Source: Cloeon dipterum (lineage: Eukaryota; Arthropoda; Insecta; Ephemeroptera; Baetidae). From it: 64,000 nucleotides of DNA. The position numbers were made by a program, and so were the translations under genes. The stretch is taken from positions 41,499,681 to 41,563,680 of the forward strand of contig NC_088786.1 of the NCBI RefSeq assembly GCF_949628265.1, written 5' to 3'. Below, one piece after another: positions 3,737 through 23,417 of the stretch (position 1 is the stretch's first letter; each line of letters begins with the position of its first letter). The notes beneath the pieces are model-generated. The model ran no database searches. It was given only the letters and a program-made list of their open reading frames with translations, and was not told the origin of the DNA.

Positions 3737-5339
3737 ATGGTTCAAAACGATGCAAAATTTAAAGTTTTGAGGTTCGTCCCTGCTCTTCTTTCCCTGCAAG
3801 AGTCAACGATCAACACTATCGTAGAAAATATTGGACGCTACAGCAGAGACCTCTTTAAGAAAATAATTTGTATTGCAAATTGATCACACATCTGAACTTT
3901 ATTTAATATTTCACAAATTCTAGCTCCTCCCATGCGCAAAATTTTGTTTGACAAATTAATGGAAAGAAAGGAAGAAATTGGAGAAGAGCAAATTTGGGCT
4001 GCACTTCCATACCTTGACCAGCACAAGACGACTGAACGTTTTTCAACCAGATAATTTCGAAGTATTTTCCGCTTGGAGAGAAAATCTGTAGGTTTTTCTG
4101 CAGCTCGCGTTTCAATGGAAGAGGTAAAAAATAGAGCCGTGTTGTCGAAACATAATTAATAATAATTCTTTTTGTTTTAGTTCCTCCAATACCTGGTTGA
4201 TTTTGCTCCGAACTTGAAAAAGCTCGACATTAAAGACCCAAGGACAGAATCGAGCAGGAAGTTGTACAAAAAAACACACCTAGAAGCACTTGCCACTGAC
4301 CTGTTCTTGAAGATGGAAAATTTAACGGAAGTCAGCATAGACGATGTTTACATCAAATTTTCGGGATTTGTGCGTGTCTGCATAGAAAGCCGTAACATGC
4401 AGTCAATTGAAGCAAATAATATTTTGGTCGACATGAAACCAACTAATTCCATGAAGAACATTCTGGAGACCCTCGGCTCCAAGTTCGACTTCCAAGAGTA
4501 TGATGAATGGAAATATCCAAGAAAAATTCGAATAATTTTGAAGAAGACAGTCGATGCTCCACCTCATCGAGAAGCAAAGGTCACTCTTTCGGATGACTTC
4601 TTTCACATGATCCCGTCAGGTTTGACGAATCTGCACGTGATTGATTTTTTTGTCCAGCTGTAGCGCAGTTATTCAAAATACATTTCAGATTTCCGCCCGT
4701 GATTCAATTGACTTGCAATGCGAGAGAAACCGTTTGCTGCGCAACCTGCGCAGAGTAGGAGGAACTCTGAAAGCTCTTTTATGATCGAATTTTTACGACC
4801 AGATTTGGAGATCACGCTCAAACATATTTTTTAACACTGCAATGATTTGGAAACACTTGCATTACGCGACTCCTGTGTGAGTCTTGAAGATCCGATTGCT
4901 TCTTTTGGTCAATTGAAAAGCTTCACCTGGACAAACGAGTAAAATTTATTTTTTGAATCTAAATTTTAAAACTCACTCGATTATTAATTACAGGATTGGT
5001 GGACAAGTTGAAGGGTACAGCACCTTACATCTTGACAGAATCTTTTCTGCGCCTCATGTGCAAGACATTTACATCCGCACTGACCTCATACTAGATCTGG
5101 GTGACAAAGAGGCACTTTTGAACCGGATTAAAAATCGCCAGATTTTGACCAAATTGAATATGATTGAGATTTGGTATTACGTTCCTCGCGATTACCCACG
5201 TTCCAATCAAGAAGAATTCCAGGAGTTGTCTCGTGAACTGCGCTCTTTAGGTTGCGACGTACATGTTTTAATAGAAAGACAAAATTATCGGACAGGAACA
5301 ACACCATACCGTAATAACCAAAGGGCTAATTTTGTTTAG
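3737..5339 (+). pseudogene. LRR/F-box-like copy 2, inactivated
   Basis: Clear paralogue of the gene at 1024-2588, with matching exons 3737-3869, 3924-4123, 4181-4636, 4689-4938 and 4994-5339. Three lesions break it. An in-frame TAA lies at 4052-4054 in exon 2. A 2-bp insertion in exon 4 creates TGA at 4782-4784 and shifts the frame. A TAA lies at 4832-4834 in the ancestral frame of exon 4. Splice sites, exon lengths and the C-terminal exon (about 115 codons) are otherwise kept, so loss looks recent. A transcript could still be made, because the 5' block is intact. Confidence 0.85.
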
Positions 5340-9655: not shown

Positions 9656-11243
9656 GTGAGATTGTAACTACACTTGTTTAAATTAACTCAATTAAGCTTT
9701 GTTAATTACTTGAAACACGTAGCCGGGTTCTCGTGGCGTCAAATATCGGCCGAATGAATAAAGATACTCTCGACTTTATTAACCACTCGCTCTATTTCAC
9801 GTTTTAATCAGAAATTCTTAGCCTTTTCGGGACTTGAACTGAATTTTTCACTGTTCTTTTAAAGTTTTGTAAGAAAACAACTATAATGAAATGACTAAAT
9901 GGCAAAGTTGACAAAAATCATTGAGTAAAACGTTGGCAGAAAATATTAATTATAAAATCGATCCAACAAAATCTAAATTATACGTGGATGAAAGTTCCAA
10001 GTATCCCGAATATTTACGCTTTGCAACTGAATAGTTCCTGAAGTCTCAAATATTTATTACAAAAATGTAGTAAGAAGAAATGTTACAATGTCGAATTCTA
10101 GGAATTCCCATTTTTGAAATTGATGAACCTATACAAAAATCCAATCCAGCAGCCACTGTGCTCCCATCATAAATTCGAACTATTCAAAGAATCAACGTGA
10201 AGATAATTCATGTAATCAGAGTAAAAGAGCATTTTTTTAGACATCTTTAGTTGCCTGACTTCCAACTAGTATATTATTATATAGTGTTCACGAAAGAGAG
10301 CTCAATGATTTTTTTGGCCCTTTTAATAGTCACAAGGGAAACCAAAATTTCGGGCTGTAAATCTGTGCCTTTTCTTAAAAATTTACAATTAAAGTTCTAG
10401 AAAAATGTTAATTTATTTTCAGATGAGTGATAACAATACAAACAACGAGAGGGAGCGGCCATCTCTGTATGAAATGGCTTTGAACACTGCTGTGATGAAC
10501 ATCGGGCGCTACAAAGACCTCCTCAAAACCAAAATTCGTAAGATAAAACGACATTTTGAGAGTGAGAATTAATTTATTAATTTTAATTTAAGCTCCACCT
10601 CTTCGGAAAATATTGTGCGAAGAAGTGATGAAAAGGTTGTCGGAATTAGGATGGGAACAAGTTTGGCCAGCTTTTCCTTATCTTGAGCCGCACAAAACAG
10701 CTGAATATTTCTCAACTTCGGCAGTAGCAGGGCTTTTAAAATTAGAGGTGCAACCTGAGCAGTCAGAAGAACTGAAATTTGTAGTCTCCTTAGAAGAGGT
10801 AAAACTAAATTAAATTTGAAAAGAACTCATGAAAAATGATAATCGATTCGTTTCTTTTTTCTCAGATTCTGCGGTACCTTGATAAATTTGCGCCAAGCCT
10901 ACGCCAACTAGACATATATGAAACGAGGTCGTATATGGAAAAAAATATTTTTAAAATGCTACGACTCGAGACAAGTGCCATTGATCTGATCTGCCAAATG
11001 AAAAATTTAACGCATATCTCGATCAGGAATGCTGAACTCAAATTATCGGGATTTGCAAAAATCTGCATGGAGATAGAAAACTTGCAAGAAATTGACGCAC
11101 ACACTGTATCTAAAATGAGTCAAGCTGACAAGGAAAAAGCTGGTCAGCGACGTAGTGACGAGGTTAAACCTTCTCACGACAAGGATAAAACTTGTCAAAG
11201 TGCGATGACACGGTTAAAACGTGTTGTAATTAGAGGCTTTATC

Positions 11244-11758
11244 CATGTCAAAATTTCCTGCTCAAAATGACATGGTTAAAACTTGTCAAAACGCGATGAC
11301 ACGGTTTAAACGGGTCGCAATGAGAGGCTTTATCCATGTCAAAATATCCTGCTCAAAATGACATGGTTAAAACTTGTCGCAATGAGAGGCTTTATCCATG
11401 TCAAAATTTCCTGCTCAAAATGACTTGGTTAAAACTTGTCAAAACGCGATGACACGGTTTAAACGGGTCGCAATGAGAGGCTTTATCCATGTCAAAATAT
11501 CCTGCTCAAAATGACATGGTTAAAACTTGTCAAAGTGCTGTGACACGGTTTAAACGTGTTTCAATGACAAGTTTTAACCATGTCAAAATTTCCTGCTCAA
11601 AATGACATGGTTAAAACTTATCAAAACGCGATGACACGGTTCAAACATGTTGCAATGAGAGGCTTAACCATGTCAAAATTTCCTGCTCAAAATGACATGG
11701 TTAAAACTTGTCAAAGCGCTTTGACGCGGTTCAAACGTGTTGCAGCAAGAGGTTTTAT
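11244..11758. repeat. 91-bp tandem repeat, six copies, inside the transposon
   Basis: Copies begin with CATGTCAAAATTTCCTGCTC at 11244, 11335, 11397, 11488, 11579 and 11669. The third starts after only 62 bp because of a deletion in the second. Each unit carries GGTTAAAACTTGTCAAA, which resembles the element's subterminal sequence, so the array probably grew from the end of the element. Confidence 0.9.
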
Positions 11759-14379: not shown

Positions 14380-15126
14380 ATGTCACGCAAGGATAGGTAA
14401 ATATTTGTTTTATAGCAGCAGATGAAAAAACAAGTGAAAAATCACGATGATTGCGGTGTTAATTTTCTTATTATTGACAGCTCTAAAGTTGAAATAGATG
14501 CATTGGGGCAAGATGAAGTTCAACCACAGGAATTTGCAGGTCTTGAAGTAGATGGCAATGCAGGACATTCATCAGGTGCAAACAAAGATCGGAATTTGAA
14601 GAGAAAGAACGACTACCTTGGCAAGAAGGAGGAAAACCAAGAAGCAAAATTGCCAAAAAAGTCTACGTCTTCAAATGAGATCAAAAAACGAGGCAATAAT
14701 AGTGGTGAATGCTGGGAATGCGAGAGGGTGTTTACCGATATTTTCAATCACTCCAAGAGAAAGCACAACGGAGAGTTGGAAAAGTGCACCGCCAGTGATC
14801 GCGTTTGCAAGAAATATTTCGACTCGGCCCACAACCGAATCGAACACGAGCAGTGGCAGCATCCGGAGCGAAAGGAATTCTGCTGCCAGCTTTGCCATCA
14901 CTCGACAGATAGAGGAGATAATTTGAAAACTCATGTTCGACGAAAGCATTCGGAAAAGAAAATCAAATGCGGAGAGCTGAAGTGTGGCAAGATGTTTGGC
15001 TCACAGGCAGATTTGAGGCATCATGTCAAGTGGTGTCACACAATGGAAAGATGTGCCAAATGCGGCAAAGAAATGAGCCTGGATGCACTTGATAAGCACA
15101 ACCGGTATGTTAATTGTGCTCAGTAA
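14380..15126 (+). CDS. C2H2 zinc-finger protein, five fingers
   Basis: Two exons: a tiny first exon 14380-14396 (MSRKD plus 2 bp) and 14481-15126, about 220 residues. I chose this start rather than the longer open frame from 14422 because the copy at 25.6 kb has the same short ATG exon, GTAAAT donor and TTGACAG acceptor. A lysine-rich linker with a KRKN patch precedes the fingers: CWEC with HSKRKH, CTASDRVC with HEQWQH, CCQLC with HVRRKH, CGELKC with HVKWCH, and CAKC with KHNRYVNC. The alternation of C-x2-C and longer C-C spacings is shared with the modular family further right. A nuclear DNA- or RNA-binding role is inferred. Confidence 0.75.
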
Positions 15127-15713: not shown

Positions 15714-18700
15714 CTATGGTTTTACGCAGATAAAGGCTTGGACATAGTTTGGGAAAAAAGAATAATTCTGCGGATTCATATAATTGTCAATGAGGAACGG
15801 CGGATACCAGACAGAAGTGAGAAAATTCCTAGGAGGCACCGTAAGTAAGAGCGAATCTTCGCAGGGATATCTTTTTGACGACTCATAGTAGAAGATATCC
15901 TGCAAAATGGTGCGGCTGTTGCACCACACCTCGTGCGTCGCGTTGATGAACTCCGTCTCTCCCACGAACATATTATCAAAATATTGCCAATTACTTAAAA
16001 TTTTAATCGTATCATAGTCCGTCTCGGTCTCAGGCTCCATAAGCTTCATTCCCAAGGAACAGCAGTGTTTGTATATATCCACTGGATTCTGTTATTTTAT
16101 AAGATTTTCTGTTACTATACGAGTAGTTATTTTAAGGACTTTGAAATTTAGACTCTTTTTTTACAACTTATTCAAATCGTTATGAGCACTTTTAGGCATT
16201 TTAAACATTTTTAAAATAACCTAAAGCCAACGATGAACATTATATTATGATTCAACGATTTAAATAGCCCAGTCTAAAGATCAAAACCTTATAATAAAAT
16301 TGAATAATTACTAGCATTCCACCAATATCAATTTTGGAAACATAATAAGTTTTGCCCTCCAGTTGTCTCAAGGTTCCATTGCTATCTAATACGCGAAAAA
16401 AATTAATTCATTGAAATGTCATACAAAACTATTTCCAGCGTACCTAAACCAAATTTATTCAGCTTATCTACGGCAGTTTGCTTTTAAAAAGAATCCAATA
16501 AATTCGATAAATTCGAAACAAAATGATAAATACATACATCAATAACGCAGGGATAGTTTTCTGAGAGCCAACAACGTCGGCGCACGGGAACACAACCGAT
16601 TGGAGGGGAAGACTAAAAGTCATTTTAGAATAAATTAAGCAGAAATAATATCATTTTCTTACGATTGATCCATTATCGTAATTATTATAGATTATTTTCG
16701 AAACCACGTCAGGCGCATTCCGTTGGCAGCACCTGTACATTTCGTAGGCAGTCGTGCAGTCCTCATTAAACTCTAAATAAATGGATTAAATCGTTCTCAA
16801 AATGGAATTTATAAAATGCAAACTAATTGTGCTGCACTGGAGGAAGGCAGCCATTGCCTGCTCAAGCAAAACAGGATTTTCCTGGGCTACCAGTTCTATT
16901 TGCCGCAACACTTCCATGCTCATTGCCTTTCCAAGCTCAAACTAAAATAAATTTAAATTAAATATTTTCAAGCTTGTCAAATATATAAAAATACCAATCC
17001 CATTTCAGATCCGATGCATTTTATAAAGCACTGGAAGTAATAAAATTGTTTTCTCAAAAATTCAGGTTGAAATATTAAATTAACCATCAGGTTCCGCGAG
17101 ACGCTTGCCGCAAGGAAAGCAGTCGCGTTAAAAAGCAGGTCAATTTGTTCTGAAACAAAATTAGTTTAAAATCAGAATCACTGCCAAATTTTCGTTTCAA
17201 CCTAAAGGCACGTCCCAGATTTCTGCGCATTCCATCTCCATAGCCACGTTGGGAGTGGCTTTTTTTCGAATCTCGCAAAGGGGATTTTTCTGTTCTGCAC
17301 AGTCGGCTGTTGCCAGCAGTGCCGTTCCGTTTCTAACCTCGAGATAAACGCAAGCAAGACCTGCCTTTGGATGGCCAACCTTCCACTTGATTTCGGGGGA
17401 AACAAAGTCCCGATTCCTCGAACACCACCGGAATTTCGAAGGGCAACCCTGATCTGTTCCAGACAGCCAGAAGTCACCGTTTCCATCTGAATAGTGTTTT
17501 TATAAGGTATTAATTTGTCACAGTGAAAGATAATCCCGCACTCTGGATGAGTTTGGAAAAGCAATTCAATTTCCCGACCGACTCCATCGAGGCCAGGGTC
17601 AGGCCGATTTCGCAGCATTTATCCCGAGCTGTTGCCCAGCTAGCCTTAGATTTCAGAAGGATAAAATAGATCGAAGCCAATTTAATAAGGAATTATACCG
17701 CGCTTTTGGTGAAGTTTAGAAACATTCGTCCACATCCTTGGTACCAGTCTCCATAACTCACATAGTCTTTTTTATTTAAAAACGTAATTGTCCATTCTTT
17801 CACTCTCTTCAATGACAATTAACAAACCTGTTAGCTCCAGATCGTTATGTTCATTATAGTTGAATAGCGTATTCTTAAAAAAAAACAATTCAAATTGTTA
17901 TATTTAAATCAAATTAATTTAAAAATTAATTTAACTGATCGTTGGCAGCTCCCAGTTGGACAAGTAGCAACACACATCAAAGGAGGTTTGATGATCAGAG
18001 ACTAAAATTTCCCCAGCAGTTTAATCGAAATTCGCATTTCTCTAATTCAAATACCTTGCACGCAAAACTGTAATGGTTTGCACAGTTTCTGTCGGACAAG
18101 ATTGTTCCTGTTGAGTTAAAAATGAAGCGAAAGTGGATGCAGCTCTCATTGCCGCCTTTGTTGTCTGGCTGTCCTGTCTCCCACACGAGATCTTTGGTGA
18201 AAATTGCTGGACCAGATGGCTCGCACCACGACCAAAGGCCTGCCGACGAGCCCTTAATCGTTCCTGAGGTCCAGAAATTTGAGGTTGCTTTCCAGTTGGC
18301 TAGTAAATCCAGATAATAATGTTCAAAGTTCATTATCAAAAATAATTTCAGTCTTATAATGTGATTGTCCTTAATAATTAATTCTATAAGAACAAATAAT
18401 CACTTTTTGTAAAACTAGTCACGACTTTCTGCTCGGCCAGATTATCGATATTGAACGCATCCATTCCCAAAGCGCAACAATGTGCGTAGTTCTCCAACCA
18501 AGTCATCTAAAACAAATAAATTATTTGTAATATAGCCTTCTCTCTTGATTTGTATATTAATTGATCAAAACCGGCTTATTTCCAAAGAGATAAGTGTAGT
18601 TTCCGATGGCAGTCCAAAACCCGTAAGAGGGCGAATCTACAATAAAACGAAGTTTATTCATTTGTATCTTAATATATCCTAAATTTACCCTTCAAGCTTC

Positions 18701-21700
18701 CAGAAGAATCAAATAAAGAATTCTAAAATTTGATTTTTAAGTAAATAAATTTCCCTTTTAAAAAAGTCCAAACCTTTTTGATGCAAACGTCGCTGCTAGG
18801 ACATTCAACGGTGTACTGGCAGATAAACGGCAGGCTCTCACTGCAGTTTTTGTGCACTGTCCCACTGGCGGCAGTGGCAGAAATGACGAAAGCCAAACAG
18901 CGTTCGGCGGGAGTTGGTGCTGCCGTGGTTGAAAGCCAGAATTTATTCGAGGAAATCAACGTGGGAGACATGTTGTAGCCCGTCGAACACCACGAGTACT
19001 GACTCAACGGCGCACAAAGCGGATCCACGTTCGAGCCACTCGTCCAATAAATTCCGGCTGACGAACATAATTCTTAGGCTGTTTGATAAAATCATTTTAA
19101 AAATCTTATTTACCGCTCAAGCTAGTCAAGCAGTCAAATTCCTCGAGAGAAGTTACGGCCAAGAGAGCCATGTTCAGCGCCTTGCACCGCAATCCGGCCT
19201 CGTTTCTCGGCACCTTAAATTTCATTCAAATTAATTCATTCGAATTTATATCAAAATCATTGTTACATTGACGCTTGAAACGTAATATTTCCTATTTGTG
19301 CACTTTGGTGGAGCTATTGCTGAGCCATCGACTGAGATTAAGGATTCAACACTCTATAGAGTTTAGTTTTTATATTTAATTTTGTTCAAACCTGTGTTCG
19401 GCATTGCTGTTGGATTCTTTCAAAAGAATAGAATGTCGGTTCATTAAATAATTAATATGTATTATATATATTTAGTGCAAAATTGGCTGCTATTTTGTTC
19501 TAAGCCACGTATTAAGTGATATAGACTCTATATAAATTTGTAAATTACCGCCAAGAAGTTGTTGAAATCTGCACAGTCCAGGAGACATGGAAGAGGCTAA
19601 TGCAGGAATGGCATTTCGAAAAAATAAACTGTTTTAAAATAACTTTGACATATCTACAGTCGTAGTAGTAGCAGTAGTGGTTGTTGTTGTTGTTGTTGTT
19701 GTAGCTGTAGTTGTTGTTGCAGCTGTAGTTGTTGTTGTTGTTGTTGCAGCTGTAGTAATTGTTGTTGTAGTTGTTGTTGTCGTAGTGGATTTTGCGGATG
19801 TAGCGGTAGTTAGCAAAGTAGTTAAAGTTGTTGTTTTTGTAGTAGTTAGAATGCTTGTCGATGATGTCGCCCGAGTGGTTGTTCTAATTGACAATCTAAA
19901 AACACATCTCTTTAACGAAAAAAAATTGCAAAATATATAGAAATTTTTACGTAGGAATTGGAGTGGTTGGAGAAGTTCGCTTAATGGTTGTCACAGGTGT
20001 AGTCGCTCTGAATTGAATTACTTCTTATAATTTCGTGGAGTAGTCTAAATAGAAACTATACTTTTTCTTCGTAGTTGTAGCTTTGACGGTGGTTTTCATT
20101 CCTGGTGGATCAGGCACCTCGCAAACAAAGTTGGAAACCATGTCGCATGAAATCCCCTCGAGACCTAGAGCGCTGAGACCGAGACAGTCGCCATCATTTG
20201 AAGGATCTTTGGGTGGGAGAAGTGCAGAGGCCAAATCTCCCAGCCAATCGGTGCCCCCGTCGGTGACCTTTTCCATCGAGGTCAAGAACGTGGTTGCTGA
20301 CAGGCCTAATAAGCGAGAGGATGCCATCAAGAATTCTGTATGGCAGTCCATAATCACCAATGTCTCCGAGAAAATCCTTAACTGGGTCGAGCTCAGCGAT
20401 CGAGCCAAGAGACATAAGCTCCAGACCATTGTCTTTGCATATGGTTGTAGCCTCGGGAATTGTAGCACGGTTCTCGGGAACTATTAAGTTTTTTCCCCCA
20501 ACGAAGTTCAGAACAGCTAATTCAAGAGAATTATAAAACAATAATGATATTTAAAATATTTCGAACCATCTTCAATTGAAGTCAAAGAGTCCAAACCCCT
20601 GAATAAATATAACAAAGCATCGAAACTTCTATTAATTCATCGTTAAATTACAAAGTTGATGCATCATCCTCCTTCGGATCTTCGCAAATAAAATGGTTCT
20701 TAGTATTGCACGAGCTGTTGAAATATTGGTCTTCCTTTTGCACCAGACAATCGCCAGGACCTCCGGGAGGATCTTCAGATCCCCAATTCGATAATAATTT
20801 TGCTCCTTCCTCGACCAGAGACGAGAACGACGAAAAAACCGGTGCTTTGAGCAAATCTATAAACGAATCAATCGATTTCTGATGTATGACTCTCGCGCAA
20901 TTACAAGAAACGAATTAACCTATATACTGTAAATAGTCTGAAATGTCTGCTGCTTCGCTTTGACTGTCCAAAGAGGCAATTTCCATCTGGTCCTTTTCGC
21001 AAATTTTCTTCGCATCGGTAAATGTAGCCTGTTTAAAATACATTTTAGTAATAGTTCAATCGTTGTAGGTAAAATTTCACTATCTCATCGGGAAACTTGT
21101 ATTTCTTCGTTCCGATCCTGACCATTTTATCAGAAGGCGCTATGTGGTAATTTTGAATTAAAATATAAAACATAATAATAAATATGGTTTACAATTAAAA
21201 ACGGTCCGCCATCCTGAAAAAAGAAGCATGCATGGTTGTAGAAAAAAATATGATTAGTTTAATTTTTAAAGTTTGATGTTATACAAAAAGATAAAAGTAA
21301 ACACTTTTTAAGGATTATGTGTAACATAATATTAAATTTAGTTTTGAAACTCAGTTTTACCATTGGATTTTGTTGTAGCTCTTCTATAAGATAGTAAATT
21401 AAATTTCAAATCATATAAGGAATCTTGAAATTACTGTTTTGCAGTAGTTTTCCTAGGTTTTGCTCCTGGTGGATCAGGGACTTGACACACAAAGTTTGAA
21501 ACCGTGTCGCACGATATTCCCTCGAGACCTAAAGCGCTGAGACCGAGACAGTCGCCATCTTTTGATGGGTCTTTGGGTGGGAGAAGCGCAGAGGCCAAAT
21601 CTCCCAGCCAATCGGTGCTCCCATCGGTAATCTTTTCCATCGAGGTTAAAATTGTGTTTGTCGGGATGTCTAAAACTATTATTAATAGTTACTAGGGAAA

Positions 21701-23417
21701 TCGTTTTATCTAAAATACCAAAATCCTTGATTAAGTCCTGGACAGGTCCGAGTTCGACGAGTGAGCTCAAGGACATGAGTTCTAAGCCCTTGTCCTGGCA
21801 AATGCCTTTCGCCTCGGGAATCGAAGCTTGTTCCTCGGGAATCAGCATATTTTTCCCGTTAATAAAATTCAGAACCGCTATTTTCGAAAAATTAAAAAAG
21901 ATCACAAATTAAATCCAATTCAAAACCATCTTCAATTGATGACAAAGGTTCCAAGCCCCTATAAAATTGGGATGTAACTAAATTTTTAATCAGTAAAGAA
22001 ATTTACTCATCCTCTTTGGGATCTTCGCAGATGAAATTGTTTTTCGCTTGGCATGAACCGTTGAAAAACTTTCCTCCCTTTTGCACTGAGCAGTCACCTG
22101 GTCCTCCGGGAGGATTTTCAGTTCCCCAATTTAATAATAATTTCGCTCCTTCCTCGATCAAAGACGTGAAAACTGGTTTATCAGACAAATCTGAACAAAA
22201 GTCAAAATTGAAGATTATTTGCATCAATACGGAAATAACTCTTTTAACCTATGTATTGCAAATATTCCGAAATCTTTTCTACTTCAATTGGACTGTCCAA
22301 AGATGCGATCTCCATCTGGTCCTTTTCGCAAATTTTCTTGGCATCGGAAAAAGTAGCCTTGTTTAATTTAGAAAACATTTGAGCTTGTATATTGCTAAAA
22401 TAACAAAATAATACCTTGGCAAAAGGAAACTTGTACTTCTTATTGCCAATTTTAACCTTTTTTAAAGAAGGTGCTGTTAATAATTATCTTAGTAAGATTA
22501 AATATTTATTTCAAAAATATTTACAGTTGAACATCGTGCGCCAACCTATAAAATTAATTTCATAAAATTTGCGGCGTAGATTCAAGCGGAAGTGGTGTTC
22601 GCGATGGAAAATTTTATTCCGGGAATTGTTAATTTTTAAAAATCGATGATGCAGTGCAGAAAACACACGTCACAAGTTTTCAACGTATATTTAATTATTC
22701 GGAAATTTATAAGACTCTCAATTTCACCGTTGTATTTTGATGTTCTATTTCTGCAAGGTAGAGAAGAGTCACATTATATATATAAACTAAGGTAAAATGA
22801 AACTATGTACCTGTTTTTATTCCAATTTGATTTTGAGCATTTCTTTTGGCCACAGCATTTGATTATGTAAGATCTCCGTGTTGAGGTGGTTTTAACTTGA
22901 AATATATTCAATAGATACGATGAAGGGAGGAAATTAAAAATAAAATTTATATACTGATGATTTTTCGGTCCAAAGGGGCGGTTACACTGATTATTTTTCC
23001 TTTAGTTTTGATTCCTGTGGAAGAGTTCCGGTCTATTTTACTTAATTGTGTTTGAAAATGATTAATTTTCCATTATAAATACGAACCAACAGCTAATTTC
23101 TTGGTGGATCCTTTCTTCGTGTCTGATTGAGCCTGAAAATAATGATTATTTTTCGAGCACTCACTCAAATTATACAAATCATACGAGAAAACACAAAATT
23201 ATGCAGAAAAGAGCAAATTTTGTTGATTTCATCGTTAAATCAAATTAAGTTTTCGAACTGACGGCAGGCACGATACTGTTTTTGATGGCAGAAGCAGAGC
23301 ACATCGGTGGTGCTTATATCCTGTGCTAGTTTGTGCGACGGAAGTGAGGCGCTCGTGTTTGGTCGAGCGAACAGAAAATTCCACGAGAAGTAGCAAGGCC
23401 ATATAGCAGCGAAGCAT
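15714..23417 (-). CDS. Secreted mosaic protein: eight C-type lectin domains, mucin segment and an OBP domain
   Basis: More than 30 short exons on the minus strand. An ATG at 23417 opens a hydrophobic signal peptide (MALLLLVEF core). Lectin domains follow: A 22497-22003, B 21905-21431, C 21160-20640, D 20520-20083. A threonine-rich mucin stretch lies at 19960-19640. Then come domains E 19320-18740, F 18690-18000 (with a QPD sugar-binding motif), G 17760-17250 and H 16380-15714. Domains show WLSG/WTSG strands, the GDC and FIC cysteines, and linkers such as ECPSSDVC. A six-cysteine OBP domain sits between G and H. The exons I checked from 17644 to 15714 join in one frame to the stop. The first few exons after the signal peptide are uncertain, and two separate genes (A-D and E-H) cannot be excluded. 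An immune or extracellular recognition role is inferred. Confidence 0.75.
16663..17240 (-). other. Odorant-binding-protein (PBP/GOBP) domain within the lectin gene
   Basis: Exons 17486-17202 (end), 17149-17085, 17030-16995, 16941-16824 and 16772-16663 join in frame. Cysteine spacing is C1-x30-C2-x3-C3-x42-C4-x8-C5-x8-C6, inside the classic insect OBP signature. Local reads include MECAEIWDVP at C1, CFIKCIGSEMGL at C2-C3 and DCTTAYEMYRC at C5-C6. It follows lectin domain G (ending NPLCEI) after about 12 residues and is followed by a short Cys-rich linker and domain H. OBPs are normally stand-alone secreted proteins of about 120-150 residues. Confidence 0.88.
19640..19800 (-). repeat. (ACA)n-type codon repeat encoding polythreonine
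   Basis: Plus strand reads (GTT)n with GTA and GCA interruptions. In the minus-strand frame it gives runs of threonine with some alanine, a typical O-glycosylated mucin linker between lectin domains D and E. Length is likely variable between individuals. Confidence 0.8.

Follow-up and report, generated by a model that had tools for sequence, protein, structure and literature searches.

Insect odorant-binding proteins (OBPs) are seen as free carriers of small size, and the number of OBP genes is taken as a measure of smell. Larger arrangements are known in the double-domain OBPs and the long D7 salivary proteins, where the partner of the OBP domain is a second OBP domain. C-type lectins carry the calcium and sugar motifs EPN/QPD and WND. 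Among mayflies, 10 OBPs have been reported for Parafronurus youi (PMC13205551), and Almudi et al. 2020 described 191 OBP genes in Cloeon dipterum, the largest repertoire known until then, obtained with Pfam-based profiles, BLAST and curation (PMC7250882). In that species, the OBP genes show tissue-specific expression in the heads and gills of nymphs; 82 of 167 are expressed in the gills, 25 are gill-specific, and in situ signals were seen in HRP-positive gill cells (PMC7250882).

The gene described here lies in a stretch of 64,000 nucleotides of C. dipterum contig NC_088786.1 (hereafter the window) and, as read from its sequence, almost certainly contains a real in-frame fusion of a lectin domain with an OBP domain. 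Like classic insect OBPs (PBP/GOBP, PF01395), this domain has six cysteines in the classic spacing, scores above the Pfam cut-off and matches solved OBPs by profile; unlike them, it is embedded in a large lectin protein and has no signal peptide of its own. The small, free format of classic OBPs does not apply, since cysteine 1 is encoded in a lectin exon and 98 of 98 OBP places found in the genome with OBP exon 4 lie behind such an exon. For comparison, the stand-alone OBP relative P0037 of Neocloeon triangulifer has 136 residues, whereas the fused protein is large. As in the double-domain OBPs and long D7 proteins, the OBP fold sits within a larger secreted protein, but here one PF01395 stretch is combined with several lectin domains. 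The gene also resembles multi-domain secreted C-type lectins (PF00059) in its several lectin domains, its Lectin_C score above the cut-off and its Thr/Ser-rich stretch; no lectin with an OBP domain was found outside C. dipterum in the searches made.

The whole gene model is on the minus strand, as are all its parts given below, with its start codon at 23232 and its stop codon at 15714. It is provisional upstream of lectin domain E, and the exons from domain E on were set by hand; an automatic DP gene model skipped short exons, including the 36-base exon of the OBP domain, and misread the threonine-rich frame. The first exon (23185-23232), which includes the start codon and was judged signal-peptide-like by eye, encodes MKSTKFALFCIILCFL. 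A basic CCGxxKC stretch (IIKCCGQKKC) follows in its own exon (22811-22895); 9 of 31 relatives have such a stretch near the N-terminus, for example P0002. The lectin-like domains A-D (20062-22394) have provisional exon borders and were compared with P0002, a protein of 1288 residues in which a single A/B lectin pair scores Lectin_C; two such pairs are apparent in the window gene versus one in P0002, and the order of parts otherwise agrees. Next come a threonine-rich, mucin-like linker exon (19658-19883), with similar stretches in relatives, and lectin domain E (18774-19331; exons 19331-19267, 19213-19114 and 19057-18774). A linker with lectin domain F, which bears a QPD motif, occupies 18055-18722 (exons 18722-18689, 18636-18572, 18506-18404 and 18299-18055), and a linker with lectin domain G occupies 17202-18001 (exons 18001-17936, 17873-17828, 17766-17699, 17644-17542 and 17486-17202). 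For the fourth of these exons the end 17542 was used; the alternative end 17536 is not a GT site. The OBP domain (16663-17240) is made of the end of exon 17486-17202 and of exons 17149-17085, 17030-16995, 16941-16824 and 16772-16663. Finally, region 15714-16612 (exons 16612-16538, 16480-16444, 16385-16323 and 16081-15714, the last with the stop codon) encodes a linker rich in cysteines followed by lectin domain H, which is degenerate; relatives such as P0002 and P0003 have matching C-termini. The predicted protein is composed of a signal-peptide-like start, the CCGxxKC stretch, the Thr-rich linker, the lectin domains, one OBP domain, the Cys-rich linker and the degenerate lectin. Unspliced reading beyond 16663 meets a stop codon after three codons, and a form of the gene terminating with the OBP domain is possible.

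The two parts meet within one exon. Exon 17486-17202 encodes both the last part of domain G and OBP cysteine 1, with the OBP part beginning at about 17240, so that the fusion is more difficult to split than was first supposed; cysteines 2 and 3 are held by the 36-base exon (17030-16995). The preliminary description of this locus had claimed five exons joined by normal introns, and indeed each intron of the OBP region is GT-AG and the frame is open throughout and into the exons on both sides. It had also claimed a complete six-cysteine OBP domain with a spacing of 30-3-42-8-8, which proved correct: this is the classic six-cysteine pattern, and it is not due to chance because 53 of 62 rebuilt family loci share it exactly. 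The profile searches that it proposed for the joined exons gave matches on both sides of the junction. The joined OBP letters match PF01395 with 39 bits (E 9.3e-10, cut-off 22), the scored sequence being one residue shorter than the final gene model, which has an additional K where exons 4 and 5 join, and a 777-residue model of domains E to H gives 34 bits for PBP_GOBP at 475-579 and 50.2 bits for Lectin_C in two stretches, the best of which, at 358-464, is domain G. Each of the ten sequences scored with profiles has one PF01395 stretch. Moreover, a profile of 13 family OBP domains matches solved OBPs, the best being 4pt1 (E 2.3e-8), with LUSH at about 5e-5. The one-exon junction, the matches to both profiles and the 141 paired loci presented below all support the original reading of an OBP domain in frame inside a secreted C-type lectin protein. 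That reading placed a lectin domain before and another after the OBP domain; it stands for domain G, which is a good lectin domain, but less so for domain H, which is degenerate and in which no Lectin_C stretch was identified.

The view of the gene as a single odd locus was dropped once a protein database, queried with the region reaching from before domain G to domain H, returned 31 relatives, all from C. dipterum. In the stored annotation, PF01395 is present in 21 of these and together with PF00059 in 16. The latter comprise eight LOC-named models on chromosome-size contigs, which belong to the same assembly as the window, and eight models named "Hypothetical predicted protein" on small contigs, so that the fusion is seen in two annotations. 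None of the 31 is the window's own gene, to which P0001 comes closest (87%); the OBP exons of P0001 match locus L007. Among the ten relatives lacking annotated PF01395, P0017, P0024 and P0025 lack exactly the 36-base in-frame exon for OBP cysteines 2 and 3, reflecting either a missed micro-exon or real alternative splicing, by which part of the fold would be lost, and the others appear truncated or mis-joined. P0021, which has a sulfatase domain, and P0030 begin with PF00884 (sulfatase) or PF11901, and both are probably mis-joined gene models. No match to the fused region was obtained from another species, though N. triangulifer is represented in the database (P0037), in a search that needed shared 5-residue words, covered candidate lengths of about 430-1360 and used a database that is not complete, since the search that found P0037 did not return the C. 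dipterum copy of its own query.

At the genome level, the existence of a large lectin-OBP family in C. dipterum is beyond reasonable doubt. The junction exon (95 residues) gave at least 96 rows with E <= 1.8e-30 when 150 of 368 candidates were scored, and 95 of the 96 rows listed extend past OBP cysteine 1. With the letters of OBP exon 4 as the only query, all 98 candidates were scored and 98 rows were obtained, and in every case a lectin junction exon is found 251-1242 bp upstream on the same strand. These rows correspond to 97 loci, as two of them share one lectin place; no OBP row was obtained for C5:30631633, which is among the 98 lectin places used. Four other searches added 49 OBP places outside this group (18, 27 of 44, 2 of 4 and 2 rows), after removal of 17 of the 44 rows as loci counted already and of 2 of the 4 rows with E values of 0.057 and 0.62. 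A lectin exon lies 258-1418 bp upstream on the same strand in 45 of the 49, one of which is already among the 97, and no paired lectin exon was found upstream of the other four (L001, L004, C3:13742461 and C3:1963500). Divergent subfamilies included, this makes 97 + 45 - 1 = 141 paired loci, where pairing refers to order and strand and is not evidence of one transcript per locus; some pairs include weak OBP matches (E up to 0.06 for the divergent queries and 0.17 for OBP exon 4), and the main OBP queries came from fused genes, which biases the count towards fused copies. Among the 76 lectin places used with the 49, 31 have no OBP row from these queries, and in two of these, L088 and L089, OBP exons are visible by eye. 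The family is arranged in large tandem clusters on four contigs. The same domain order, which the preliminary description had proposed to look for in related genomes, is found both in these paired C. dipterum loci and in single proteins of two annotations.

Some subfamilies are divergent. Recognisable OBP exons follow 10 of the 12 distant lectin matches fetched, and the reading of such matches as plain lectins was rejected for those inspected. Behind the lectin match of L090 and L095 lies a helical region that has few OBP-like cysteines, is too degenerate to call and is perhaps a decayed OBP; in L085 and L088, the exon with OBP cysteines 2 and 3 is not visible in the segments inspected. By eye, a phase 0 intron follows the last Cys-Glu of the lectin in L087, L088, L089 and L091-L094, and this border intron is absent in L084, L085, L086 and the window gene. 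Similar peptides occur with and without it, for example CE, intron, ARDTSNS in L093 versus CEARDT in L084 and L086. We infer that the fusion may have been made by recombination in the border intron, which would later have been lost in the subfamily of the window gene, and that the copies would then have multiplied in tandem. The family is a plain example of the capture of a soluble carrier fold by another extracellular protein, and some of its copies retain the border intron.

Searched with Pfam by single exons, the genome yielded four places, L001 to L004. The match in L001 spans in-frame TAG codons and may therefore be broken or cross an intron. L002 and L003 are fused and fall below the cut-off by their single exon; L003 and its near copy L002 show by eye a lectin end, an OBP and the start of another lectin domain. 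These two loci (C4:31.08 and 31.18 Mb) form a second lectin-OBP-lectin subfamily with an identical OBP exon, in opposite orientation and about 97 kb apart. Queries with stand-alone OBP genes yielded no further convincing copies in the genome, in exon-wise searches that miss divergent stand-alone OBPs; within the searches made, the visible OBP expansion lies in the fused class.

With GT-AG introns and an open frame, all five exons were rebuilt by script in 64 of 70 loci (L005, which is the window gene, to L074), and the OBP exons of the remaining six were identified by eye. One of these six, L073, is a probable pseudogene or sequence error, its 36-base OBP exon being interrupted by an in-frame stop. 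Nine more short pieces all have OBP exons: in six of them exons 2-5 stand in order, L075 and L076 stop short of the later OBP exons and L083 has no recognisable exon 2. The six cysteines are kept in 62 of 62 measured loci, L022 and L027 being excluded from this set as well as from the dN/dS and distance-correlation sets, and the nine loci without the exact spacing of the window gene deviate in a single loop, by one or two residues. The OBP exons have a median dN/dS of 0.166, with all 258 pairs below 1, and the lectin half has one of 0.177, with 257 of 258 pairs below 1, as measured on equal-length gapless pairs with dS of 0.05-1 that are not independent; the lectin-half pair L005-L009 gave a meaningless value. 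Protein distances of the lectin and OBP parts correlate over the 62 loci with r 0.714, a value reached in none of 2000 permutations. We conclude that the two parts evolve as a unit under purifying selection.

These data also bear on the possibility that the gene model falsely joins a neighbouring lectin gene and OBP gene. Such an error is very improbable: some annotated family models do look faulty, as P0021 with its sulfatase domain, and the lectin-OBP junction is known here from genomic sequence, but a single open exon carries the lectin end and OBP cysteine 1, all 98 OBP places are paired with a lectin exon, the distances of the two halves are correlated and two annotations agree. It is also rather improbable that the OBP domain has lost ligand binding and that its sole role is to keep lectin domains apart as a folded spacer. 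The six cysteines kept in all 62 loci, the strong constraint and the matches to ligand-binding OBPs such as LUSH count against a spacer, while the degenerate OBP part of some distant copies (L090 and L095) and the lack of the exon for cysteines 2 and 3 in P0017, P0024 and P0025 would fit one.

The lectin domains differ in their sugar motifs. QPD is present in domain F of 28 of the 28 relatives possessing that domain, and the domain F region of P0003 matches langerin; [ST]D is found at the canonical WND position, by which sugar binding of domain F may be weakened, and domain G has GHP or DHP at the motif position. The best explanation as a whole, which we advance tentatively, is that the protein could be a glycan-anchored carrier of hydrophobic ligands at water-exposed surfaces. 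The QPD-type domain F and the mucin-like part would fix it to glycans of mucus, cuticle or microbes on water-exposed organs such as the nymphal head and gills, and the OBP domain of the anchored molecule would hold a hydrophobic ligand, so that a carrier otherwise washed away would stay put. This reading is supported by the QPD motif in all domains F and the langerin match, the mucin-like stretch, the constrained OBP domain and OBP expression in head and gills (PMC7250882). The earlier proposal of joint sugar and lipid binding for microbe sensing ranks second and appears unlikely. In its form of secreted immune recognition, the lectins would bind microbial sugars and the OBP domain microbial lipids, tandem duplication providing a large repertoire. 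The large tandem clusters on four contigs, the QPD lectin domain and a mean identity of only 0.66 between loci in the OBP part are in line with this, but the OBP exons are under purifying selection, with no diversifying sign on average over sites, and the published OBP genes are expressed in a tissue-specific manner in nymphal heads and gills (PMC7250882).

The presence of 141 OBP-lectin pairs in the genome of one insect suggests that OBP domains are built into large secreted lectin proteins. HRP staining marks certain glycans, and HRP-positive cells may therefore not be neurons. The family resembles the published C. dipterum set in species, in detection by OBP profiles and in its unusually large number (PMC7250882). 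The word "lectin" occurs 0 times in the main text of that article, and we infer the identity of the 191 genes with lectin-OBP loci: most of them are probably the OBP portions of genes at such loci. Should the published list overlap with the 141 loci, the meaning of the largest OBP repertoire described by 2020 changes, as does that of the claim of smell in mayfly gills. The stronger reading, for which the chances appear evenly balanced, is that nearly the whole repertoire of 191 genes consists of secreted mucin-lectin-OBP chimeras and that the OBP-expressing cell clusters of gills and head, interpreted as olfactory because of this expression, secrete glycan-anchored ligand traps. If true, it would reveal a previously undescribed class of OBP protein, together with a large system for carriage or recognition in an aquatic insect. 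The preliminary description knew of no family with such a layout, and our search of the open-licence literature, mainly at listing level, likewise yielded no paper on a lectin-OBP fusion.

Finally, two other kinds of open frames were noted by eye in the window. Two similar zinc-finger-like frames in opposite orientation, at 14416-15126 on the plus strand and 25333-24920 on the minus strand, flank the lectin-OBP gene, and such an inverted repeat could aid duplication. In addition, similar leucine-rich frames are repeated on the plus strand at 1465-2241, 4181-4663 and 10833-11270 and have the look of a tandem family.
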